A stretch of 64,000 nucleotides of DNA. Source: Pseudomonas sp. 31-12. Lineage in GTDB: Bacteria > Pseudomonadota > Gammaproteobacteria > Pseudomonadales > Pseudomonadaceae. The position numbers were made by a program, and so were the translations under genes. The notes under the pieces are model-generated. The model ran no database searches. It had not been told where the DNA came from and was given only the letters and a program-made list of their open reading frames with translations. Of the stretch, positions 1 to 11,093 are shown piece after piece (position 1 is the stretch's first letter; the number at the start of each line of letters is the position of its first letter). The stretch spans positions 3,224,001 through 3,288,000 of the forward strand of contig NZ_CP029482.1 in the NCBI RefSeq assembly GCF_003151075.1, written 5' to 3'.

Positions 1-272
1 ATGTCTCGGTCAACAGTGCTGATGGTTACATTGCGGCCTGCGAGGCAGGCTACGGGCTGGTGCAGACGCCGTACTACCACGTTGCCCGTCAATTGAAGGA
101 AGGGCGTTTGTGCGAAATCATGAAATCGACGCCGCCCCCCGGAATGCCATTGACGGCCCTCTATCCCCCACACCGCCAGTTGTCCCGGCGGGTAAGGGTG
201 TTTGTCGACTGGCTGGTGGAGCTTTGCGCGCAGCCGGGCAATGACTTTCACAGAAAAGACTCAAGCAGCTGA
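1..272 (+). CDS. LysR-type regulator, C-terminal end (partial)
   Basis: The reading frame is open from the left edge (codons begin at base 3) to a TGA at 270-272, giving about 89 residues. The piece resembles the end of the effector-binding domain of LysR-type regulators: an AACEAGYGLVQTP stretch, then a P-x-x-RQLSRRVRVFVDWL helix typical of the last helix in this family. The DNA-binding half lies outside the window, so target genes cannot be judged. It converges on the adjacent minus-strand acetyltransferase gene and its end overlaps that gene's end by about 12 bases. Family assignment is fairly sure; function is unknown. Confidence 0.75.
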   Translation, partial: VSVNSADGYIAACEAGYGLVQTPYYHVARQLKEGRLCEIMKSTPPPGMPLTALYPPHRQLSRRVRVFVDWLVELCAQPGNDFHRKDSSS

Positions 273-1196
273 GCGAGCGCTGGCCAGTGTTTCGGTATTG
301 CGCTGCAAGTCGTCGTGCAGCTGTTGCATGTAGGGGCAATGCAGGTTGAGGGATCGAGGCTGCGCTCCTCTATGAAACAGGGCGAACCATCCATGATTGC
401 CGGGTGCGGGCATCAACCCGGTGAAGGTGAAACCCAGCAGCGTCAAACTGCGCAGGTCTTCGGTGAAGTGCCGTGATAACGCAACCCGGGTCGAGATCAT
501 CCAGTGACCGGGCAATTGCCGGATCTGGTCGAGCAGGCGTTTGCTCAAGCGCTGAACGACCATGTCGAAGCGGTGATGATGTTGCTTGATCTGCAAGGGC
601 ATCGAAGGTGGTGCTGGTATTTGCGGATGAGTCCCGAACAGCGAACACAGGTGCTGCATAAACCCTCGATAGCGCTCAGGCCAGGGAATGTCAGGGAGCG
701 GGCGCGCGTGGCCTTCAACCACGTAGCAACCCATCACAATGGTTTCCGGGTGCGGCTCGCCGAAGGGCGAAGGGACGTAGTCGGGAAGCACGCCTGTGCT
801 GTGGAAGCCGATGTTTGCAGCCATGCGTTGAGTGTACGGGTGGTGGGTCACTTGTTTGATCACGACACTCTTGAAGCCCAGTGGTCCGGCCTGCAACAGT
901 AACTCCCGGCCCAGGCGGGTCGCGATACTTTGCCCCTGCGCGGCGGGATGCACCACGCTGAGCGCCAGTTCCGCAGTTTGCGGGAACACTTCCTGGCACA
1001 ACGCGGCATGCCCGAGAACCCTTACGTCGTCCACCGCCAGCATCGATTTCCAGCGGCCGTCGGCAATGTGCTGGCTGATCATGTTCGGCAGGTAAACATC
1101 CGGTTGAACGTAATGATCGCCATAGACCTCACGAAACAGCTCGCTCACGGCGCGGGCGTCGGAAGGGCGAAAGCGTCGAAAAATCAGGTGAGACAT
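261..1196 (-). CDS. GNAT-family N-acetyltransferase, last gene of the LuxCE/PaaK-like cluster
   Basis: This is a protein of about 311 residues. Its N-terminal half looks like a GNAT acetyltransferase: FRRFRPSDARAVSELFREV at the start, then LALSVVHPAAQGQSIATRLG as the probable acetyl-CoA loop, then a QRMAANIGFHSTG segment like motif B. The C-terminal half (after about residue 170) is longer than a usual GNAT and has no motif I recognise; it may be a degenerate second GNAT fold. The ATG at 1196 overlaps the TGA of the upstream adenylating-enzyme gene (TGATG) behind a GGAG, so the two are translationally coupled; a GTG one codon upstream is also possible. Context suggests it acylates the product of the cluster, which is inference. 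Confidence 0.75.
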   Translation of the reverse strand: MSHLIFRRFRPSDARAVSELFREVYGDHYVQPDVYLPNMISQHIADGRWKSMLAVDDVRVLGHAALCQEVFPQTAELALSVVHPAAQGQSIATRLGRELLLQAGPLGFKSVVIKQVTHHPYTQRMAANIGFHSTGVLPDYVPSPFGEPHPETIVMGCYVVEGHARPLPDIPWPERYRGFMQHLCSLFGTHPQIPAPPSMPLQIKQHHHRFDMVVQRLSKRLLDQIRQLPGHWMISTRVALSRHFTEDLRSLTLLGFTFTGLMPAPGNHGWFALFHRGAQPRSLNLHCPYMQQLHDDLQRNTETLASARSAA

Positions 1197-2485
1197 CACG
1201 CAGTCTCCAGTGATGGCGCGTCATAGGTGCGCAAATCCAAGACCCGCATCTGTTTTCCCGAGCGAGGGTGAAGCTTCAGTTCGGTGGCAGGGCAGGACAG
1301 CACCCGCAGCTCCAGCAACCCTTCGCGATTCAGTTGCTCGAGCGCGGGATAGTGGGTCACAAGCGCTGCATACAGCGCCTGGCACATCGCAGCGGTGGTC
1401 AGTGCTTGAGCGCCGGGCACCCATTTCACACTGACGATGTCCTTGTAGCCGTCATGTTCGATGCGCAATTGCCACTGATCGGTATCGGCAACGCGCTGGA
1501 CGATCTGCAGAATTTCGTCGATCAACAACGACATAGACCCCACCCGAACCCGCTGACTATGGGCGCTACGTCCCTTGAGGGCGAATTTGCGCATCGGGGT
1601 TGTGCCTGGCTCACGCCAGCAGGCGCGGTCGCCCACCGGATAACGCAGCAGTGGCATCAGTCGGCGTGTCAGGTTGGTCACCACCAACACTCCAGTACGG
1701 TCGCATTCTTCGATGACTTCGCCGGTGAGTTCATCGACGATTTCCAGCAAAGTCTGCGGTTCAAACACCCTATGCTCGCCCAGGGCGCAGTCTCGGCTCG
1801 TCGCCCCGATCAGACCCGCATCGACGCTGGCATAGCCGATTGAGGCGATGCGCACGTTGGGAAACACCTGGGTGAATATTGCCATTTGCGGGCCGAACAG
1901 GCTTTCGCCGCCGTACAGCAACGTTTCAACCCCACACAGAACCCGCTGATGCTGGTTCAGGTAGGCCGCAAAGCGCAATAACTGCGCCGGCACGCCGACC
2001 AGCACGTTGATCCGGTGCTGATCCAGCGCATCCGCCAGGACATCCATGCTGACTTCGCCAGTGAACGGAAACTCACAGATAGACCGTTTGACGTGCGTCA
2101 GCGAGTCGTGGATGAACAGAAAGCTGGCGTAGAGATCGCCGCTGAAGAACAGATTGGCGACGCGGTCGCCGTTTTTCAGTTGGCAGGAAATACTGTCGCC
2201 GAACGTGCTGACCAACGTTTGCCATTCATCCTTGGAATACACCGATAGTTTGCCGTGGCTGGTTGAACCCCCCGTTTTGAACACCAGCCCGTTACTGATC
2301 TGTCCGGTCAGTACGGGCCATTCAGTTAGATCGTTACTGTCTGCCCAATAGTCGGCAACATTGGTTAATGGAAGGTCTTTTAAAGTGTTTCCTTCCAATG
2401 GCAAGTGTTGCAGGTGTTTGCGATAGAAGTTTGAGTGTTGCCTTATGTAATTCACGAGTTGTTCAAGCGAATAAGGTGTGTTCAC
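1196..2485 (-). CDS. PaaK-like adenylate-forming enzyme (stand-alone)
   Basis: This 429-residue protein belongs to the phenylacetate-CoA ligase/coenzyme F390 synthetase branch of adenylate-forming enzymes. The phosphate-binding loop is TGGSTSHGK (residues 71-79), followed by GYASVDAG in the middle and RYPVGDRACW as the adenosine/ribose-binding region. It has no fused carrier or reductase domain. It shares motif order with the C-terminal half of the neighbouring LuxC fusion (YGSVDAG, RRYDVGD), so the two may be old duplicates. The start is a GTG preceded by AAGAGA. It lies 51 bases after the fusion gene and is coupled to the acetyltransferase gene. The expected chemistry is ATP-dependent activation of an aromatic or aliphatic acid; substrate and acceptor are unknown. 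Confidence 0.8.
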   Translation of the reverse strand: MNTPYSLEQLVNYIRQHSNFYRKHLQHLPLEGNTLKDLPLTNVADYWADSNDLTEWPVLTGQISNGLVFKTGGSTSHGKLSVYSKDEWQTLVSTFGDSISCQLKNGDRVANLFFSGDLYASFLFIHDSLTHVKRSICEFPFTGEVSMDVLADALDQHRINVLVGVPAQLLRFAAYLNQHQRVLCGVETLLYGGESLFGPQMAIFTQVFPNVRIASIGYASVDAGLIGATSRDCALGEHRVFEPQTLLEIVDELTGEVIEECDRTGVLVVTNLTRRLMPLLRYPVGDRACWREPGTTPMRKFALKGRSAHSQRVRVGSMSLLIDEILQIVQRVADTDQWQLRIEHDGYKDIVSVKWVPGAQALTTAAMCQALYAALVTHYPALEQLNREGLLELRVLSCPATELKLHPRSGKQMRVLDLRTYDAPSLETA

Positions 2486-2536
2486 CGGGTTCTCTTATTA
2501 TCAGGCGTTTCTACGGTTGAAAAACTGGCAACAGGT

Positions 2537-4939
2537 TTATTTCCTGTTATCGATAACTAACGGTGTTTTCCCGCTGTGTTTGTTTCTGGTGAACCCGGAT
2601 TCAGCGCACTGGTGAACTTCCACCGTTAACAGTGCAGCGTTCACGGCATTGGCCAATGCTTCATGGTTCAACAAGTTTGCATAAACCTTGTCGGCATTCA
2701 GGTTCGCTAGAACCGTCAGTCGCTCCCGGCCATCGAGGGCATGGTCCAGGACCAGTTGAACAGGCAAGCCGACACTCTCCTGTAGTGCCAACGGAGAAAT
2801 GAATTCCGTGCCCATGCGAATCAGCTTGCCGTGACGCTGCAGCAATTCGAATCGCGGAGAGTCGAGCCCGCACGGACAGGCTCCGGGTATCCAGCGCCCG
2901 GTGTCGCCAACGTCGTACCGGCGCACGCTTTGGCCTTGCCGGGCGCGGGAGGTGAATAGCAACCGGCCGACCTCATCGGCCTGCACCGGCACATCGTGTT
3001 CGAGATGCACGATTTCCAGATGCTGTGTGTCGCACATCAAATGAAAGACGCCGTCCTCGGTCGCCGTGCAGGCATGCCCCAGCGGGCCGGCGTCGACCGA
3101 GCCATAGATCGCCGAGCGAATCGTCAAAACCCCGCAGCTTTCCATCAGGCGCAGGCTGGCCTCGCCGGGGTGCTCACCACCGAGGAACACTTTGCTGATG
3201 CCGGCGTACGCGCGAAGTCGGCTTTGTTCGTTGAAAAACAGGCGGTGCAACGTACTTGGCATGCCGATCAACACGGTAATTCGGTGGTCCACAATCAGCT
3301 GGGCAATTTCACTGAAATCATCATTGTGCGGCGCGCCCATGGGGAAATGCGTAACGCCCATCTGCTCCAGAACCTTGGTGAAACTGGAGAAACCTCCATA
3401 CAGGCTGCCGCCGTAAAACAGGTTCATCGCCCGGTCTGTTGATGGGTCGAGACCGGCGGCAAACATGCCGTCAGCCGCGGCGCGCATCTGCCGTTGAAAG
3501 TCGTGATAGCTGAACCCGGCCAGGGCCGGCGTGCCGCTGCTACCGCCGGAACGGAAATACAGCTGTGCAGAGGCGTTGATCGGTTGGGTCATGAACGCGG
3601 TTTTGTCCATGATCGGTTCGTGACGTGTATCGGGAGCGGGAGGTGGCGCATCGAGCGTTGCCCGACCAGGCACTGCTTCCGGCGGCAGACTCACTGAGAG
3701 GCGACGACTGAAGCGTGACAGCGCGTAGACGCCGTCATGGGGCTCCCCGGGGTAACCGTCATGAATCGAACCGCACGGGGCGATACGCGTGACGCCGGCA
3801 TTGACCAGCGTGCGTATCAGCCCGGGCGTCTGTGCAGGTGAGCAAATCAACGCGCAGCTTTGCAGGACCGTGCGCCAAGGCAACAGCGTCTCGGCGATCA
3901 AGTGTTGCGGCACCGGTTTGAGTAGCAACGTGCGAAACAACGGCGAGGGCGCGAGCGTCTGGTTGTGATCCCAGATGACTCTCCATCCGGGGCCGGCCCA
4001 GACCTGAGCAGTCCGGTTTGCAAAGCAATGTTCCAGGCGCGCCATGGCGGTGCGGGTGGTGATCTCCGAAGCCTCCTGGTCTGTCGGAATCAGCGCCGGC
4101 CAGTGTGAGGCACGACGTGTGAACGCTTCGGCCAGACGTTCACCCAGGTCCCGCAAAACCGCCGGATCGTTGCTGTCCACCAGTAGCCATTGCGGGCTGG
4201 AACACGCTTGTTGATCGAGGCTGCACACTTCATCCACCAACGCGTCCAGCGTCGAAGGGCTAGCCGCGTCGGGCGACAGGTAAGCGAAACTGATCCTGTG
4301 GCCCCAATCGATGAAGCGACACCCGGCCGGGATCTGCTGACGAATCGCCTTGAGTGCTTGTTCACCGCCCCAGGCGGCGACACCATCAGCGTGGGTGCAG
4401 AGTCGCGTTATCTGAGTAGTGCTGACCGGCAACACCGCAATGAAATCAGCCAGCTTGCCGCGGGTATCGCAGTGCACCAGCGCCGCGAGTAACCGGGCGG
4501 TCAATCCATCATCGCTGGAGCTGGGGCGCAGCCAGTTGATGTTACCGGCCAACAGGCTTTCGACGACCGCGCAGAACGCCAGCATCGGCGCATTGCCCGG
4601 CGTGATGTGAACCACCAGACCCAGCGGGTGCCAGCTCTCAAAGCACGCTTGGCGGTAATCGATACGCCGCAGGGAGCGCGGTTGCACACCCAACTCTCGC
4701 TCAAGCTTGGTGACGAGGTTGCTGCGTTGGCAGAAGTCGACAAGCCCCAGTCGTTGACCGTCGTCGAGGGGCACGTCCAGCCTGCCAGCCTGCAATTGCA
4801 GGATAAAACGGGCCGCTGCGTCGATCACGGTGGCGCTGTCAATCGGCGCGTTCAGCAGCCGTGGCAGTTGTGGGTGCAGTTCACCGAGGGCGGTTTCGAG
4901 GCTGACGTCGTCACGCAGTTCGCCATGGATCAGGTACAT
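2537..4939 (-). CDS. LuxC-like acyl reductase fused to a PaaK-like adenylating domain
   Basis: This two-domain protein has 800 residues. Residues about 1-400 resemble the LuxC acyl-CoA/acyl-enzyme reductase: HPLGLVVHITPGNAP as the nucleotide-binding region (about 105-118) and CSLDQQACSSPQ (about 239-250), where Cys246 matches the acylated catalytic cysteine. After a Pro-rich linker (about 425-440), residues about 455-800 form a PaaK-like adenylating domain with FRSGGSSGTP (about 462-471), YGSVDAGPLG, and RRYDVGDTGRW followed by CPCG. I chose the ATG at 4939 because GGAGGAG lies just upstream; a TTG five codons earlier sits inside that ribosome-binding site. Only one base separates it from the luxE-like stop. 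Fusion of these two activities in one chain is unusual. Confidence 0.85.
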   Translation of the reverse strand: MYLIHGELRDDVSLETALGELHPQLPRLLNAPIDSATVIDAAARFILQLQAGRLDVPLDDGQRLGLVDFCQRSNLVTKLERELGVQPRSLRRIDYRQACFESWHPLGLVVHITPGNAPMLAFCAVVESLLAGNINWLRPSSSDDGLTARLLAALVHCDTRGKLADFIAVLPVSTTQITRLCTHADGVAAWGGEQALKAIRQQIPAGCRFIDWGHRISFAYLSPDAASPSTLDALVDEVCSLDQQACSSPQWLLVDSNDPAVLRDLGERLAEAFTRRASHWPALIPTDQEASEITTRTAMARLEHCFANRTAQVWAGPGWRVIWDHNQTLAPSPLFRTLLLKPVPQHLIAETLLPWRTVLQSCALICSPAQTPGLIRTLVNAGVTRIAPCGSIHDGYPGEPHDGVYALSRFSRRLSVSLPPEAVPGRATLDAPPPAPDTRHEPIMDKTAFMTQPINASAQLYFRSGGSSGTPALAGFSYHDFQRQMRAAADGMFAAGLDPSTDRAMNLFYGGSLYGGFSSFTKVLEQMGVTHFPMGAPHNDDFSEIAQLIVDHRITVLIGMPSTLHRLFFNEQSRLRAYAGISKVFLGGEHPGEASLRLMESCGVLTIRSAIYGSVDAGPLGHACTATEDGVFHLMCDTQHLEIVHLEHDVPVQADEVGRLLFTSRARQGQSVRRYDVGDTGRWIPGACPCGLDSPRFELLQRHGKLIRMGTEFISPLALQESVGLPVQLVLDHALDGRERLTVLANLNADKVYANLLNHEALANAVNAALLTVEVHQCAESGFTRNKHSGKTPLVIDNRK

Positions 4940-4940
4940 A

Positions 4941-6071
4941 TCAGGCTCCTCCAATCAGTTCAGACGCGGCCATTGCGCAGCTTCGGCTGGCGCTCGTGCC
5001 GGCGCGTCCATGCAGTTCAAACCAGTCGGTCTGCAAGCCGCATCCGCAGCTAGCTCCGGGGTGCAGCGTCGCCAGATCCCCCATGACCACGGCATGCGCG
5101 GGGCTGGAAGAAATGTAGGGCGACACGAACTCCAGCAACCCGCGCCGGCCGTAGGGCTGGACGGTGAAGTCGGATGGATTGCGCACGAAGACCTTCGAAT
5201 AAACCGGCACATGAAAATGCTGGTGAGCACACTGGATATAGGGCACGGCATGCTCGACCGCGCCGTAGCCGTCGCGGCAGCGGGACAGGTCGATACCCAG
5301 TTGGCGGTTGATCCGTTCATACAACTGCGACAAAGGAATTTCCTGCGCCGCCTGGGTTTTCCAGCCGCCACCGAGAAACACCAGTGACTCGGCCGGCAAC
5401 TGCAGATCCGCCACGCCGGTGTCTGCCATGTGTTGCAGCGCGTGGGAAAGGAACGCGGGGAAGCCGAGAATGCGCACCGGTAAACCTTCCTCTGCGAACG
5501 CCTGCAAGGCGCGGATCACCCCAAACAGATCGAACGCGTGACCTTCTCCGGTCAGGCGCAATCCGTAGGCGACGCGGTTGACCGGCGCGTAACTGCACAA
5601 AAACTTGTCGGTGTAGGCGGTGCCCAATGTGATGGCGGCCTTGGGTTCGTAGCTCAGGAGCAAGTAGTTGCAAGGGGTGTCGGGGGTGTCCCAGCCGTAA
5701 TGGCGAAAAATGTGGCTCACCATCCCTTGGGCGGCGGCCATGCTGCGCTCGTCGTAGCGCAAGCGACTCTTCTGGCCGCTGGTGCCGGAGGATGTCAGCT
5801 CCAGCGCGTCTTCGCCTGTGGGACCGAACAACAAGTGACGTTTGAAATAATGGGCGAAAATCGGTGGCAGCCTTGACCAGTCATCCAGTGTCTCCAGGTC
5901 TCGTGCAACGAGACCGTTAGCATTGAGCCAGCGCTCGTAGCCGGGCGTGTGGTGACAATGAAACAGGCTTATTTCCCCCATAGCCTGGTCGAACAGGCCT
6001 TCAGGCACGGAATCCAGGCAATAGGGGTGCGTTAACGCGCAAAGCGCATCGGTGTGGGGTAAATGGATCAT
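4941..6071 (-). CDS. LuxE-like acyl-protein synthetase
   Basis: This 376-residue protein matches LuxE-type acyl-protein synthetases in length and motifs. It has ELTSSGTSGQKS (residues 91-102) as the ATP-binding loop and a family-like C-terminus with a cysteine at residue 365, eleven residues from the end. LuxE of luminous bacteria carries its acyl group on a cysteine at nearly this position and passes it to LuxC. A central DGYGAVEH segment is also seen. It begins 21 bases after the exporter gene and ends one base before the LuxC fusion gene, so all three probably share one mRNA. The role is activation of a carboxylic acid and delivery to the reductase. No luxAB is present, so the aldehyde must feed something other than light. 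Confidence 0.87.
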   Translation of the reverse strand: MIHLPHTDALCALTHPYCLDSVPEGLFDQAMGEISLFHCHHTPGYERWLNANGLVARDLETLDDWSRLPPIFAHYFKRHLLFGPTGEDALELTSSGTSGQKSRLRYDERSMAAAQGMVSHIFRHYGWDTPDTPCNYLLLSYEPKAAITLGTAYTDKFLCSYAPVNRVAYGLRLTGEGHAFDLFGVIRALQAFAEEGLPVRILGFPAFLSHALQHMADTGVADLQLPAESLVFLGGGWKTQAAQEIPLSQLYERINRQLGIDLSRCRDGYGAVEHAVPYIQCAHQHFHVPVYSKVFVRNPSDFTVQPYGRRGLLEFVSPYISSSPAHAVVMGDLATLHPGASCGCGLQTDWFELHGRAGTSASRSCAMAASELIGGA

Positions 6072-6092
6072 CGAAGGACCTATCGAGTGGGG

Positions 6093-7334
6093 TCAGGCAG
6101 CAAGCGGGGGAAGGGCGCGCCGCAGGAACAGGCGCAAGGGCAGCAGGCACAAGAGCCCTGCGACACCCGCCATCAGGGCGAAGGATTCGTGACTGACGCC
6201 AGCGCCGGCCGCTGCCATCAGCGAGCCGCCGCCGCCCATGACGGCGATCGAAATCATGCCGATCATGGCCGAGACCAGGCCTTTGCTGTCGTCGCTTGAA
6301 AATAGCGCGAGCCGGTACAGTGCGGCATTGCTCATGCCCAGGCCGATGGCGTAAAGCGCCAGGGCGCTGATCAGCAAAGGCGTCGACGCACCGTAGACAC
6401 TGCTGGCGAGCAGCGCGATAAGCCCACCGCAAAACGGCCAAAGCGCGTATCGAATCAGTTGTGGCAACTCATTGTTGGCAATCAATCGGTTGAGTATCAG
6501 GTTGCCGAGAATGACTGCCGCAAATACCGGGATTTGCCACAGGCCGTACTCAAGCGACGAAAACCCCTGGTTCTGAATCAGCAGGAGTGGCGCCAGTCCG
6601 ATCCAGGCGATCAATGGCAGGCTCATCACGCCTAGTGCAACAGAGGCCGTCATGAATCGCAGGTTGGTGAGTAAAGCGACATAGCGGCGAAAGGTGCCAC
6701 GCCATTCAAAGGGCATTGCAGCCAGGCGCTGACCATCGTGGCGCAAAGTTCCCACGGTCTCCGGCATGAAGATGAACAGCGCAACCCAGGTCAGCACGCC
6801 AATGATGCCCAGCAGTAAAAACAGCTCCCGCCAGGAGATCCATTCCAGCAACAAACTGCCCAGCAAGGGCCCTAGAAGAGGTGAAAGCAGGGCAACATTC
6901 CCTAGTAGCGCCATGATTTTTACTGCATCGGCTTCGCAGAAGACTTCTTGCAAGGCCGGATAGCTGACGGCAATGACAAACCCCAGCCCCATTCCTTGAA
7001 CCAGACGCAAGGCGTTGAAGGCATATATGGTTTTCACGTTGAACGTGGCAACGCAGGCCAGGGCGAATAGCCCGCAACCGATAAGCAACATTCTGCGGCG
7101 ACCGTACTGATCGGACAGCGGCCCGATCAGCCACTGCAGGAGAACGCCCCCGGCTAAATACAAATTAAAGGCATAAGGGACATGTTCGGGACTGGAATTC
7201 AGTTGTTGGGTGACAGTTAGCATGGCCGGCATGATCATATCGCTGGCCATATAAGTGAGTAGTTCGAAAAGAGCAATTGCGATGCAAAACCCGAATAATC
7301 GAATGGGGCTTATAGTTATCAAGGCGCTGCGCAT
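6093..7334 (-). CDS. MdfA-like MFS drug/metabolite exporter, first gene of the cluster
   Basis: This 413-residue inner-membrane transporter has about 12 hydrophobic segments. It strongly resembles E. coli MdfA: an N-terminal TYMASDMIMPAML segment with the acidic residue in helix 1, YLAGGVLLQWLIGPLSDQYG with GRRRMLLIG as the loop 2-3 signature, and antiporter motif C-like ALLSPLLGPLLGSLL. The start is set at the ATG at 7334 behind AAGGA; an upstream in-frame ATG at 7400 has no good ribosome site. It heads the LuxE/LuxC/PaaK-like gene run, so it probably exports the product or protects the cell from it. Substrate unknown. Confidence 0.85.
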   Translation of the reverse strand: MRSALITISPIRLFGFCIAIALFELLTYMASDMIMPAMLTVTQQLNSSPEHVPYAFNLYLAGGVLLQWLIGPLSDQYGRRRMLLIGCGLFALACVATFNVKTIYAFNALRLVQGMGLGFVIAVSYPALQEVFCEADAVKIMALLGNVALLSPLLGPLLGSLLLEWISWRELFLLLGIIGVLTWVALFIFMPETVGTLRHDGQRLAAMPFEWRGTFRRYVALLTNLRFMTASVALGVMSLPLIAWIGLAPLLLIQNQGFSSLEYGLWQIPVFAAVILGNLILNRLIANNELPQLIRYALWPFCGGLIALLASSVYGASTPLLISALALYAIGLGMSNAALYRLALFSSDDSKGLVSAMIGMISIAVMGGGGSLMAAAGAGVSHESFALMAGVAGLLCLLPLRLFLRRALPPLAA

Positions 7335-7544
7335 GGAGTTCCTTCGGGGGGGGCTTAAGTTATAAAGTAAGTTCTCAGGTGGTGGAGCAAGAATAGTCAT
7401 TATCGATGAGTAATTTCATTGCGATAAGTGAGACACCAAATTTCAGAAGTTTTGCGGCCCGTCTAGTGCGCGGGTCAGAGAGCAAAAGAGAGAGTTTTTG
7501 TGAAGTGACTTACATTAGTGCAGGAGAAATCCTACACGAAAATA

Positions 7545-7560
7545 CCCGCTACTAAGCGGG
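7545..7560 (-). terminator. Possible weak terminator after the small lipoprotein gene
   Basis: A perfect 6-bp stem (CCCGCT/AGCGGG, loop ACTA) is followed on the minus strand by TATTTTCG. It lies downstream of the 45-residue lipoprotein gene and upstream of the exporter gene. The U-tract is short, so termination would be partial. Confidence 0.35.
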
Positions 7561-7587
7561 CATATCGAAAAGTCTTACAGAGTGCGT

Positions 7588-7601
7588 TTGTATTTTTACA
7601 A
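7588..7601. promoter_or_regulatory. AT-rich perfect inverted repeat upstream of the LuxCE/PaaK-like cluster
   Basis: TTGTA-TTTT-TACAA forms a perfect 5-bp inverted repeat about 250 bases upstream of the exporter start, inside an AT-rich stretch. It could be an operator or simply part of the untranslated end of the lipoprotein mRNA. No regulator is assigned. Confidence 0.25.
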
Positions 7602-7630
7602 GTGATTAGTTTTGTACTTTCGAAGAAGCT

Positions 7631-7768
7631 TTAACGGTGCTGGTAATAACCAGGTCCACCTCTGTCGTAATGGTGGTCACCGTGCCAGCCCCCGTGGGGG
7701 AAAACGATGCAACCGCTAAGGGTTAGCAGAGCGATCAGGGGAATCAGCAACGTGATTCGACGTAACAT
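7631..7768 (-). CDS. Small predicted lipoprotein, 45 residues
   Basis: The ATG at 7768 follows GAGGA at good spacing. The protein is MLRRITLLIPLIALLTLSGC followed by a short tail rich in Gly, His and Tyr (HGGWHGDHHYDRGG). LTLSGC is a standard lipobox with Cys20 as the lipidated residue, so the mature part is only about 26 residues. Tiny His/Gly-rich lipoproteins like this are common in Pseudomonas and are mostly uncharacterised. The His-rich tail hints at metal binding, but that is inference. An in-frame upstream start is possible but would hide the signal peptide. Confidence 0.7.
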   Translation of the reverse strand: MLRRITLLIPLIALLTLSGCIVFPHGGWHGDHHYDRGGPGYYQHR

Positions 7769-7925
7769 TTGAAAATCCTCAAGGTTATCGCTGCAATAAA
7801 GCCAAATCTCTTCATCGGCTGTAACATGAGACCCCGTTTGCAGCGTCCCATTCCCGCACAAAGGTAGGGGCTTGGCATGCTTTCAGATACAAACCGGACA
7901 CATTTTTCAGGTTCAGGAACTCGCA

Positions 7926-8114
7926 ATGACTCAGTCGCAACGTTTGAAATACTCGATTCTGATCTCCCTGGTGGTGCTGGGGATCATGTTCGGCCTTTCG
8001 TATCTGCAAAACGCAGGTGTCATCAGCGAGAAGCTGTTTCAGTACATCGCCATCGGCGTGGCGGTGATCGTGGTGGTGATCAATGGCGTGATGCGTCGCA
8101 AGGTCAAGCCTTGA
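7926..8114 (+). CDS. Small membrane protein, 62 residues, unknown function
   Basis: The ATG at 7926 follows AGGAA. The protein has two hydrophobic segments: YSILISLVVLGIMFGLSYL (about 9-27) and FQYIAIGVAVIVVVINGVM (about 38-56). It ends with a short basic tail (RRKVKP), which suggests a helical hairpin with cytoplasmic ends. It stands alone between a divergent lipoprotein gene and a convergent regulator gene. I do not recognise a named family. Confidence 0.7.
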   Translation: MTQSQRLKYSILISLVVLGIMFGLSYLQNAGVISEKLFQYIAIGVAVIVVVINGVMRRKVKP

Positions 8115-8131
8115 GCGACGCATTGAACTGA

Positions 8132-8503
8132 TCAGTCGCGATGAAGCAGGGCTACAGCGTGTGGATGCAGGCTGTAGCTTTTGTCCGCGTTGTGCGTGAT
8201 TACGCCTTCGCTGCACAAGCGTTTCAACACTTCTCGCACACTGAGAAAGGACAGGGGGATATCCAGGTCCAGCAAGTGGCCATGCACGCCGCGCACGCCC
8301 AGGCTGCGCTCGCTTTCGGCGGCGGTCAGCAAGGCGTCGATGACCTTGAGTCGAATCAGGCTGGTTCGCAGTCCATAGCTTTTGAGCAGCAACCTGATCC
8401 GCTCGTTGCCATTGCGCTCGCCTTGTTGGCTGAAGACCCCGGAGCTCATGGCTGAACCCTTGGGCGCGTGACTACCGTCCGTTGGCAGTTGCGAGTTGTA
8501 CAT
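8132..8503 (-). CDS. Fur-like winged-helix protein lacking the metal/dimerisation domain
   Basis: This protein has 123 residues, with the ATG at 8503 behind AAGGAG. After a polar N-terminal tail of about 30 residues, it shows a Fur-family DNA-binding fold: RIRLLLKSYGLRTSLIRLKV, then a long region ending in FLSVREVLKRLCSEGVI and a wing-like HNADKSYSLHP. It stops there. The C-terminal His/Cys-rich dimerisation domain that Fur and Zur use for metal sensing is absent (usual family length about 135-160 residues). It could be a DNA-binding protein without direct metal sensing, or a modulator of Fur. It lies just upstream of pvdQ on the opposite strand. Confidence 0.6.
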   Translation of the reverse strand: MYNSQLPTDGSHAPKGSAMSSGVFSQQGERNGNERIRLLLKSYGLRTSLIRLKVIDALLTAAESERSLGVRGVHGHLLDLDIPLSFLSVREVLKRLCSEGVITHNADKSYSLHPHAVALLHRD

Positions 8504-8747
8504 GCAAAAACTCCTTTTCCGAGCCGGCCAGGAAATGTGATGGGTGCTCTCATTGAATAAGACGTACGAGCACACCAAATAATGAACGCCCGAATGTAGA
8601 AAATTCGTCACTGGCATGTCAGCAGCCTGTGAGATGGCTGGGAAAAGCGCCTTTCAGGGCCTAAATTTTTGTCGTCGATTTCGTTCCTAGGGGAAGGCGC
8701 GGTGCGTGTTTGACGCAGGGTGTTTGTCTTTTCGATCAGGAGCGAGC

Positions 8748-11093
8748 GTGATTATTTCCAGGCAATTAACCAGGTTGAGCCTGGCGGGCATGTTGGTGGG
8801 GCTGAGTCTTGCGGCAAGCGCGCGCAGTACGCCCGAGGAGGCGAGCGCCGATATTCGCCGCACCAGTTTTGGTGTGCCGCATATCCGTGCCGAAAACGAG
8901 CGTGGTCTCGGTTATGGCATCGGTTACGCCTACGCCCAGGACAACCTGTGCTTGCTGGCCAATGAGATTGTCACCGTCAATGGCGAGCGTTCACGCTATT
9001 TCGGCCCGGACCAACTGACGGTCGAGGAGCGCGAAAACCAGGTCAGCGATCTGTTCTTCACCTGGCTCAATACCCCTGACGCCGTCGCCGGGTTCTGGAA
9101 GGCGCAAACCTCACCAGTGCGTGATCTGGTCGAAGGTTATGTTGCGGGCTACAACCGCTCGCTGAGCGAACGCCGCGCACAGGGTTTGCCGCAGCAATGC
9201 CAAGGCGAATGGGTACGCGATATCACCTCGCAGGACCTGGTCAAGTTGACTCGCCGCCTGTTGGTCGAAGGCGGAGTGGGGCAGTTCGCCGAAGCGCTGG
9301 CGGGGGCGACGCCACCCAAGGCCGTCACGAAGGCCGCAGGCGAAGGGTCGTCGTTTCAGCTGGCGGCCACGCGCATGCAGCGGTTCGCGCTGGATCGCGG
9401 CAGCAATGCGGTGGCGGTCGGCAGCGAGCGGTCGTTCAATGGCCGTGGGATGCTGCTCGCCAACCCGCATTTCCCCTGGATTGGCGGGATGCGCTTCTAT
9501 CAGATGCACCTGACCATTCCCGGCAAGCTGGATGTGATGGGCGCGGCGTTGCCGGGGCTGCCGATGATCAATATCGGGTTCAACCAGCACCTGGCGTGGA
9601 CCCATACGGTGGACACGTCCAAGCACTTCACCCTGTATCGCCTGCAACTTGATCCCAAGGATCCGACTCGTTACCTGCTTGACGGCAAGTCGCTGCCAAT
9701 GGACAAGCAAACCGTGACGGTGAACGTGAAACAGCCCGACGGCCAGACCCGGGTGGTGTCTCATGTGGTCTATAGCTCGCAGTTCGGTCCGATCGTGCAG
9801 TGGCCCGGCAAACTCGACTGGGACAATCAATACGCCTACAGCCTGCGCGATGCCAACCTGGAAAACGACCGGGTGTTGCAGCAGTGGTACGCGATGAATC
9901 AGGCCACCAGCCTCAAGGATTTGCAGGCCTCGGTGCACAAGATTCAAGGCATCCCGTGGGTCAACACCCTGGCGGTGGATAGTCAGGGGCAAACGCTGTA
10001 CATGAACCTGTCGGTGGTGCCGAACGTCAGCGCCGACAAACTGGCCAAGTGCAGCGACCCGCGCATCGGGTTGCAGATGATCGTGCTCGACGGCTCCAAC
10101 AGCGCTTGCGCGTGGGACAGCGATCCGAACGCCGCGCAACAGGGTATTTATGCGGCGGACAAGTTGCCGCAGCTGCTGCGCAAGGATTACGTACAACACT
10201 CCAATGATTCTGCGTGGATGGCCAACCCGGCGCAGCCGCTCACCGGTTTCTCGCCCCTGATCAGTCAGGAAGGCCAGGCACTGGGGCTGCGCTCGCGTTT
10301 CGCCCTGGATCGATTGAGCACGCTGAGCAAGGCCGGCCTGATCTCGGCGGCGGATTTGCAACGGATGGTGATGGACGATCAGGTCTATCAGGCCGGGCAA
10401 GTGATGCCGGATCTGTTGCAGTTCTGCGCTGGCGATCTGGGCGCCGATGCCGCCACGCTCGCGCCGGTATGTGCGAGCCTCAAGGCGTGGGACCGCAGCG
10501 CAAATCTGGACAGCGGGCTCGGGATTGTTCACTTCCAGAACGTAATGGAACCGTTGCAGCAAGTCCCGGACATCTGGCGAGTGGCATTCGATCCGAAAGA
10601 CCCGCAACACACACCGCGCGGGCTGGCGCTGGATAATCCGCAGGTGAGCCAGGCCATACGCGAAGCGATGCTGGCGTCGGTGGAGCAGGTCAAAAAGCTT
10701 GGGCTCAAGGATGAAAGCCGTTGGGGCGACATTCAGGTGGTCAGCAGCGGCGGCCAGCAGACGCCGATCCACGGCGGGCCAGGCACGCTGGGCGTGTACA
10801 ACGCCATCCAGAGTGTGCCGAGGACCGATGGCAAACTCGAAGTCATCAGCGGCACCAGCTATTTGCAAGTGGTGACCTTTGATGACAAAGGCCCGCACGC
10901 GCAAGGTCTGCTGGCCTTCTCGTTGTCCAGCGATCCGGCGTCGAAGTACTCCCGGGATCAGACCCTGGCCTTTTCGAAGAAGCAGCTGAGCCCGTTGCCG
11001 TTTACCGAGCAACAGATCACGTCAGATCCGCAGTACCAGGCGCAGACGATTCGCGAGCAGGATGAAAAAGCCGGGAAGGTGGCCGCTCATTAA
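8748..11093 (+). CDS. pvdQ: Acylase PvdQ, Ntn-hydrolase of the pyoverdine pathway
   Basis: This 781-residue periplasmic Ntn-hydrolase of the penicillin acylase family resembles P. aeruginosa PvdQ closely along its length. PvdQ removes the fatty acyl chain from pyoverdine precursors and can also cleave long-chain N-acyl-homoserine lactones. The GTG at 8748 follows AGGAG and gives a clean signal peptide ending in LAASA. The alpha chain carries GVPHIRAENERGLGYGIGYA; processing before Ser219 in RGSNAVAVG creates the beta-chain nucleophile. HTVDTSKHFTLYRL and NSNDSAW-like (HSNDSAWMANP) motifs are kept. Pyoverdine synthetases are not in the window, as in other fluorescens-group strains where the genes are scattered. 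Its neighbour is a FecR-type anti-sigma factor. Confidence 0.93.
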   Translation: MIISRQLTRLSLAGMLVGLSLAASARSTPEEASADIRRTSFGVPHIRAENERGLGYGIGYAYAQDNLCLLANEIVTVNGERSRYFGPDQLTVEERENQVSDLFFTWLNTPDAVAGFWKAQTSPVRDLVEGYVAGYNRSLSERRAQGLPQQCQGEWVRDITSQDLVKLTRRLLVEGGVGQFAEALAGATPPKAVTKAAGEGSSFQLAATRMQRFALDRGSNAVAVGSERSFNGRGMLLANPHFPWIGGMRFYQMHLTIPGKLDVMGAALPGLPMINIGFNQHLAWTHTVDTSKHFTLYRLQLDPKDPTRYLLDGKSLPMDKQTVTVNVKQPDGQTRVVSHVVYSSQFGPIVQWPGKLDWDNQYAYSLRDANLENDRVLQQWYAMNQATSLKDLQASVHKIQGIPWVNTLAVDSQGQTLYMNLSVVPNVSADKLAKCSDPRIGLQMIVLDGSNSACAWDSDPNAAQQGIYAADKLPQLLRKDYVQHSNDSAWMANPAQPLTGFSPLISQEGQALGLRSRFALDRLSTLSKAGLISAADLQRMVMDDQVYQAGQVMPDLLQFCAGDLGADAATLAPVCASLKAWDRSANLDSGLGIVHFQNVMEPLQQVPDIWRVAFDPKDPQHTPRGLALDNPQVSQAIREAMLASVEQVKKLGLKDESRWGDIQVVSSGGQQTPIHGGPGTLGVYNAIQSVPRTDGKLEVISGTSYLQVVTFDDKGPHAQGLLAFSLSSDPASKYSRDQTLAFSKKQLSPLPFTEQQITSDPQYQAQTIREQDEKAGKVAAH

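Follow-up and report, generated by a model that had tools for sequence, protein, structure and literature searches.

The window analysed here is a stretch of 64,000 nucleotides from Pseudomonas sp. 31-12 (NZ_CP029482.1), covering positions 3,224,001–3,288,000 of a single-contig genome of 6.73 Mb whose named relatives are Pseudomonas of the mandelii/frederiksbergensis/fluorescens kind. It carries a run of five minus-strand genes (Table 1), which we compare with the leupABCD genes of leupeptin biosynthesis. A first-pass annotation had described these genes as tightly spaced from position 7334 to 261, and re-reading of the open reading frames (ORFs) in the window bore this out: the successive gaps measure 21, 1 and 51 bases, and the genes for the PaaK-like enzyme and the GNAT protein overlap by 4 bases. 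The families that it had named, an MdfA-like exporter, LuxE, a LuxC–PaaK fusion, a second PaaK-like enzyme and a GNAT acetyltransferase, were also recovered when Pfam and NCBIfam profiles were run on the five proteins, although the MdfA and second AMP-binding matches fell under their cut-offs.

Table 1. The five genes of the cluster, in order of transcription (positions in the window).
Gene and product	Position	Strand	Length (aa)	Profile match and remarks
MdfA-like exporter of the major facilitator superfamily (MFS), proposed leupeptin exporter	6093..7334	-		MFS_1, E 7e-35; first gene of the run
leupA-type gene, LuxE-like acyl-protein synthetase	4941..6071	-	376	PF04443, E 3e-22
leupB-type gene, LuxC reductase–PaaK-like adenylating domain fusion	2537..4939	-	800	PF05893, E 4e-109; AMP-binding/PaaK-type second half
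leupC-type gene, stand-alone PaaK-like adenylating enzyme (proposed amide ligase)	1196..2485	-	429	GTG start; AMP-binding, E 1.4e-5, under Pfam cut-off
leupD-type gene, GNAT N-acetyltransferase with second C-terminal domain (proposed leucine N-acetyltransferase)	261..1199	-	312	GTG start; PF00583

The best NCBIfam match of the exporter was the MdfA subfamily NF011931, with 336 bits against a cut-off of 439; its ORF opens at 7400, and the ATG conserved among relatives lies at 7334. The ORF call for the fusion starts at a TTG at 4954 and gives 805 residues, whereas a start at the ATG that follows luxE by one base yields 800 residues, the length of the database copies. Residues 34–369 of the window LuxE matched the LuxE of the solved LuxC–LuxE complex 7xc6, and this alignment runs through the C-terminal Cys, which in the lux literature is the acyl-carrying residue. 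The GNAT protein gave a predicted fold with a mean predicted local distance difference test score (pLDDT) of 84. Its N-terminal half is the GNAT domain, and the best PDB matches of the model were N-acetyltransferases acting on amino acids, polyamines and other small-molecule amines, such as phosphinothricin acetyltransferase (5dwn). The C-terminal half is folded in the model and had no separate named relative among the 50 structure matches listed.

Pfam and NCBIfam detected no domain of a non-ribosomal peptide synthetase (NRPS), no carrier protein and no NRPS reductase domain in the five proteins. Neither the luciferase genes luxAB nor the thioesterase gene luxD were found among the five genes or the scanned adjacent genes, in agreement with the earlier remark that no luciferase follows. 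The cluster shares LuxE and LuxC, with their catalytic cysteines, with the luxCDE fatty acid reductase, but differs from it in that the genes read include no LuxD or luciferase, LuxC is fused to a PaaK-like domain, and an extra ligase and a GNAT protein are present. LuxE and LuxC were rightly taken in the first-pass annotation for an acid-to-aldehyde pair.

The conservation of the cluster was evaluated in 398 sampled genomes of the genus, in which a relative of the fusion was present in 74 (the window genome counted), about one fifth of the sampled Pseudomonas species. For the other 73 fusion loci about 20 kb was compared, as far as the contigs reached. The genes for LuxE, LuxC–PaaK, PaaK and GNAT lie on one strand and in the same order in all 74 loci, and the MFS gene adjoins luxE in 68 of them. 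Because the order of the four co-stranded enzymes is kept in every fusion-carrying Pseudomonas genome, the four-enzyme core is a real cassette and more than a chance association. Two genomes have a split fusion, L112 a split ligase gene and L110 a split GNAT gene, and the LuxE of L073 lacks its first residues in frame. Moreover, the catalytic motifs were conserved. The LuxE C-terminal Cys (R-x-C-x-x-A), the LuxE SSGTxG loop and the LuxC active-site QQAC were present in 74 of 74 loci, GG[ST][ST]GxP and YGSVDAG of the PaaK half of the fusion in 69 and 68, and RYPxGD and SVDAG of the stand-alone ligase in 72 and 71, respectively.

A set of one acetyltransferase, two ligases, one acid-to-aldehyde pair and one exporter suggests leupeptin, acetyl-Leu-Leu-argininal. 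Leupeptin, a tripeptide aldehyde, is an inhibitor of serine and cysteine proteases. According to the available passages of the respective reports, the leupeptin of Xenorhabdus bovienii is made by separate AMP-dependent ligases and a reductase and not by an NRPS (PMC11212599); leupABCD adjoins a transporter gene in Klebsiella, mostly K. michiganensis, at 315,353–321,183 of CP011636.1 (PMC8283571); and deletion and induction work on the leup operon of K. oxytoca yielded leupeptin, a Lys analogue and a Leu-Arg pyrazinone (PMC11480411). The known leup clusters (K. michiganensis/oxytoca, Photorhabdus and Xenorhabdus; MIBiG BGC0002135) probably have the same core in the same order as the window, with nearly equal lengths and an adjacent transporter. 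The first-pass annotation had recognised no named pathway and had held that homologues with a described role in one would speak against its reading; the gene set in fact corresponds to leupABCD with its adjacent transporter, and the homologues, being leup genes, have such a role.

The correspondence to the individual leup genes was examined with the published primers and coordinates, as given in the excerpts available. The leupB_r primer, reverse-complemented, reads EQLKDH, and all four copies of the K. michiganensis fusion that were checked have this peptide at residue 47. By this primer peptide, the window-type fusion is LeupB. Counting back from the primer site places the leupB ATG at 316,482. 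The published cluster begins at 315,353, which leaves 1,128 bases, or 375 codons and a stop, and then a gap of 1 base before leupB; LeupA of Klebsiella would thus have 375 residues, as against 376 residues and a gap of 1 base for LuxE in the window. In addition, the leupA_f primer is open in the deduced leupA frame and reads EDSDSQ, with a comparable DSSSEQ at the same place in L148, one of the enterobacterial loci described below; this primer was placed by the published 1,235-base amplicon, as its table coordinates span 23 positions for a 21-mer. Layout in the published coordinates and this primer together identify LuxE as the predicted LeupA. Behind Klebsiella leupB there is room of 2,296 bases for leupC and leupD, against 2,276 bases in the window, counted between the ends of the fusion and GNAT genes. 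The stand-alone ligase and the GNAT protein therefore probably correspond to LeupC and LeupD by order and size; the order of these two genes was read in Photorhabdus-, Xenorhabdus-, Morganella-like and Salmonella loci and not directly in Klebsiella leupCD. With regard to the transporter, an MFS gene adjoins luxE in the window, and the Klebsiella transporter gene is published as adjacent. Furthermore, the best 120 of 1,069 matches to a profile built from four enterobacterial fusions include proteins from the published leup hosts Xenorhabdus, Photorhabdus and K. michiganensis, the last with many entries, and from Morganella.

The combined evidence makes it highly probable that the window cluster is a leup-type operon whose product, made without an NRPS and then exported, is leupeptin (acetyl-L-Leu-L-Leu-L-argininal) or a close analogue. 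The earlier description of a compact biosynthetic operon with an exporter and an aldehyde or amide product was sound in this respect, and the adenylating enzymes and the acetyltransferase point to an aldehyde that probably contains amide bonds. Formation of the aldehyde, alcohol or amide of some other, non-peptide acid (fatty or aromatic), in which the PaaK-like enzymes would serve as CoA ligases, was also considered. The first-pass annotation had suggested this in broad outline, and LuxE and LuxC act on fatty acids in luminous bacteria and relatives of PaaK are aryl-CoA ligases. Such a product is very unlikely in view of the close structural and positional match to leupABCD and of an operon that holds no genes for fatty-acid or aryl-acid supply. 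The Streptomyces peptide aldehydes antipain, MAPI and chymostatin belong to the predicted product class but are made by NRPSs, whereas the window cluster has neither an NRPS nor a carrier protein.

In the pathway proposed for the leup-type operon, the GNAT protein would acetylate leucine with acetyl-CoA, and the stand-alone PaaK-like enzyme would adenylate the resulting acetyl-leucine and join it to a second leucine. The PaaK half of the fusion would then adenylate acetyl-Leu-Leu and join arginine; it is placed last among the ligases because it is the one fused to the reductase. LuxE would re-activate the finished peptide acid with ATP and hold it as a thioester on its C-terminal Cys, after which the LuxC half would take the peptide over on the Cys of QQAC and reduce it with NADPH to the aldehyde, for export by the MdfA-like transporter. 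The parts and their motifs were observed; the step order, the assignment of the ligases, the residues used and the export of the product are proposals. Classical work on Streptomyces is reported to have found an enzyme that forms acetyl-leucine, a leupeptin acid synthetase and a reductase that depends on ATP and NADPH.

The distance between the window cluster and the known producers was assessed for the fusion. Identity of the window protein to the K. michiganensis fusion bearing the leupB primer site was 53.8% over 800 residues, and to the fusion of X. bovienii 52.1%; the latter two were 53.2% identical to each other; identity to Streptomyces was 43–46%. The window fusion is thus no farther from either known producer than those two are from each other. 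In a tree of 29 rows, three clades were obtained besides Streptomyces: the Pseudomonas clade of the window (support 100/100), a clade with Photorhabdus, Xenorhabdus, Chromobacterium and Burkholderia (98/99), and a clade in which Klebsiella, Erwinia and Mixta stand with a second Pseudomonas group, L127, L128, L130 and L133 (90/80, not starred). As Pseudomonas rows fall in two of these clades, the genus holds two separate lineages of the cluster.

These data also bear on a clearly different peptide aldehyde made by the same enzyme logic, in which the Pseudomonas clade would have changed the acyl group or the residues (for instance a different N-acyl chain, or a terminal aldehyde that is not basic), so that its product would be a leupeptin relative with a different target protease. 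The window clade is its own, fully supported branch, the GNAT protein is 36–40% identical to its enterobacterial counterparts, and K. oxytoca makes a Lys analogue besides leupeptin, according to the passages available (PMC11480411). However, the two producer lineages are as far apart from each other as from the window and, in the published excerpts, both make leupeptin. A change of product is therefore possible but somewhat unlikely, and this alternative overlaps with the prediction of leupeptin, which admits close analogues.

Several points weigh against the assignment of leupeptin to the window cluster or set that cluster apart from leup. The product is predicted from the genes, and the host is a Pseudomonas whose proteins are 36–64% identical to those of leup. 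The three clades of the fusion tree meet at an unresolved fork, and the known producers do not bracket the window clade. Klebsiella leupA, leupC and leupD were matched through published lengths, order and one primer, and not by sequence. The least conserved protein is the GNAT protein, which sets or follows the acyl group. The window has an MdfA-like MFS gene heading the operon, whereas no such gene is adjacent in the Photorhabdus and Xenorhabdus loci read, and five of the seven enterobacterial loci have no MFS gene, one of them with less than 1 kb of upstream sequence. Finally, the P-loop of the window stand-alone ligase, TGGSTSHG, departs from the usual SGTTGxP; the ligases of Photorhabdus and Xenorhabdus show a departure of the same kind.

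Outside Pseudomonas, the fusion was matched in 1 of 293 genomes of an order-level sample, which was the window's own, and in 2 of 398 of a phylum-level sample, the window's own counted. The second match of the phylum-level sample led to the Enterobacteriaceae, in which 7 of 198 sampled genomes had the fusion cluster. The gene order of the four enzymes is kept at these seven loci and the sites are unrelated; five are intact and two are damaged, L147 by a split fusion and L148 (9174–11102) by a deletion that removed the PaaK portion of the fusion together with the beginning of the adjoining ligase gene. L145 is Photorhabdus-like: its fusion shares 95% identity with a named protein from Photorhabdus, and its four genes have the order of the window at 64, 52, 50 and 40% identity. 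L146 is Morganella, with a fusion 100% identical to a Morganella protein. The stand-alone ligase was 48–50% identical to five enterobacterial counterparts, the same number as compared for the GNAT protein. An MFS gene 47% identical to that of the window lies upstream of the core in L143 and L146.

Among plasmid records there were 8 fusion matches, 6 of them over at least 80% of the fusion, namely 2 from Salmonella, 2 from Streptomyces and 2 records of one Streptantibioticus strain. The four-gene core stands in the same order on a conjugative IncF plasmid of Salmonella enterica (L149, 4872–10630; CP054717.1). On a plasmid of Streptomyces sp. NBC_00158 (L150, 2842–12380), ligase, MFS, GNAT, LuxE and fusion form one reordered run, with 44% identity to the window for the fusion and 49% for LuxE and no convincing alignment to the window proteins for GNAT and MFS. 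In both L150 and L151, also Streptomyces, all five protein kinds including a full-length LuxC–PaaK fusion stand in one run beside three peptidase-inhibitor I36 genes. An NRPS-free leup set in Streptomyces would be of interest because leupeptin from that genus is described, in the passages available, as made by an NRPS (PMC10548850).

The leup-type pathway is thus already known, so the surprise is moderate; its occurrence in Pseudomonas seems to have been little noticed. No literature report of leup in Pseudomonas was found in the titles, abstract beginnings and passages searched, the founding leup paper lying outside that search. The assignment turns an unnamed operon of 74 of the 398 sampled Pseudomonas genomes into a specific prediction, namely that these soil and plant bacteria would secrete a leupeptin-type protease inhibitor. 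If true, it would account for a protease-inhibition phenotype in fluorescent pseudomonads and would extend the known hosts of leup, so far a few gammaproteobacteria, to Pseudomonas, Betaproteobacteria and possibly Streptomyces. It would also supply many diverged enzymes for the study of NRPS-free peptide aldehyde synthesis by stand-alone ligases with LuxE and LuxC.

The neighbours outside the cluster are LysR and aldo-keto reductase genes on one side and Fur-like, acylase and FecR genes on the other. These flanking genes are variably shared among the 68 loci, and 115 of 149 genomes of the genus have a member of the Fur-like family although many of them lack the cluster; the neighbours are therefore not part of it. 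Acyl modification of flagellin or a surface glycan has some precedent, as LuxE and LuxC are reported, in the passages available, from flagellin glycosylation islands (PMC4875605). Those carboxylic-acid-reducing pairs share LuxE and LuxC with the window, but the window cluster has no glycan or acyl carrier protein genes, the neighbourhoods read hold no flagellin or glycan genes, and a small-molecule exporter is present; such a role is scarcely credible.

A metallophore pathway was weighed on account of 5 of the 74 Pseudomonas loci in which a TonB receptor (plug, barrel and STN domains), an extracytoplasmic function (ECF) sigma factor (FecI) and FecR stand beside the core in place of the exporter. 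At L127–L131 (about 2,600–8,800 of the oriented loci; also L053, L054, L055 and L059), of the Klebsiella-side clade, the MFS gene is absent and the STN-domain TonB receptor gene lies upstream of luxE on the same strand, divergent from FecI/FecR. However, this set is missing from the other 69 loci, including that of the window, and the receptor stops about 190–380 bases before luxE, so that the two are not clearly one operon. The Fur-like and FecR genes close to the cluster in the window are features of the chromosomal site, and the enzyme set matches leup. A metallophore is hardly plausible on these grounds, and the idea was dropped given the rarity of the receptor and the wide spread of Fur-like relatives. 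A link to lanthanophores was likewise discarded: the mentions of LuxE and LuxC in lanthanophore papers refer to lux reporter genes only. A broader speculation, which we regard as rather improbable, is that the Pseudomonas leup cassette makes a distinct peptide aldehyde (or pyrazinone) exported by the MdfA-like protein, and that in the clade with FecI/FecR/TonB the product would be sensed or taken up again, a protease inhibitor turned into a signal or metallophore-like public good.

No conserved Fur box was seen by eye near the MFS start. In ten relatives (L117, L119–L126 and L132) a conserved stretch, CCMACGTA...AACGYTGGGA, lies just before the MFS start around a candidate inner hairpin with varying stem letters; it may be an operator or leader hairpin and was not seen before the MFS gene of the window itself. 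Upstream of the window cluster, a penicillin-amidase-family gene (8706–11093, E 1.5e-137) is divergent from the Fur-like gene. Farther upstream, a gene of 1,606 residues with ToxA_N (PF20178; 12246–17066) adjoins a FecR gene that has no FecI or receptor gene with it, and relatives of this gene, varying in length and identity, flank many other loci.

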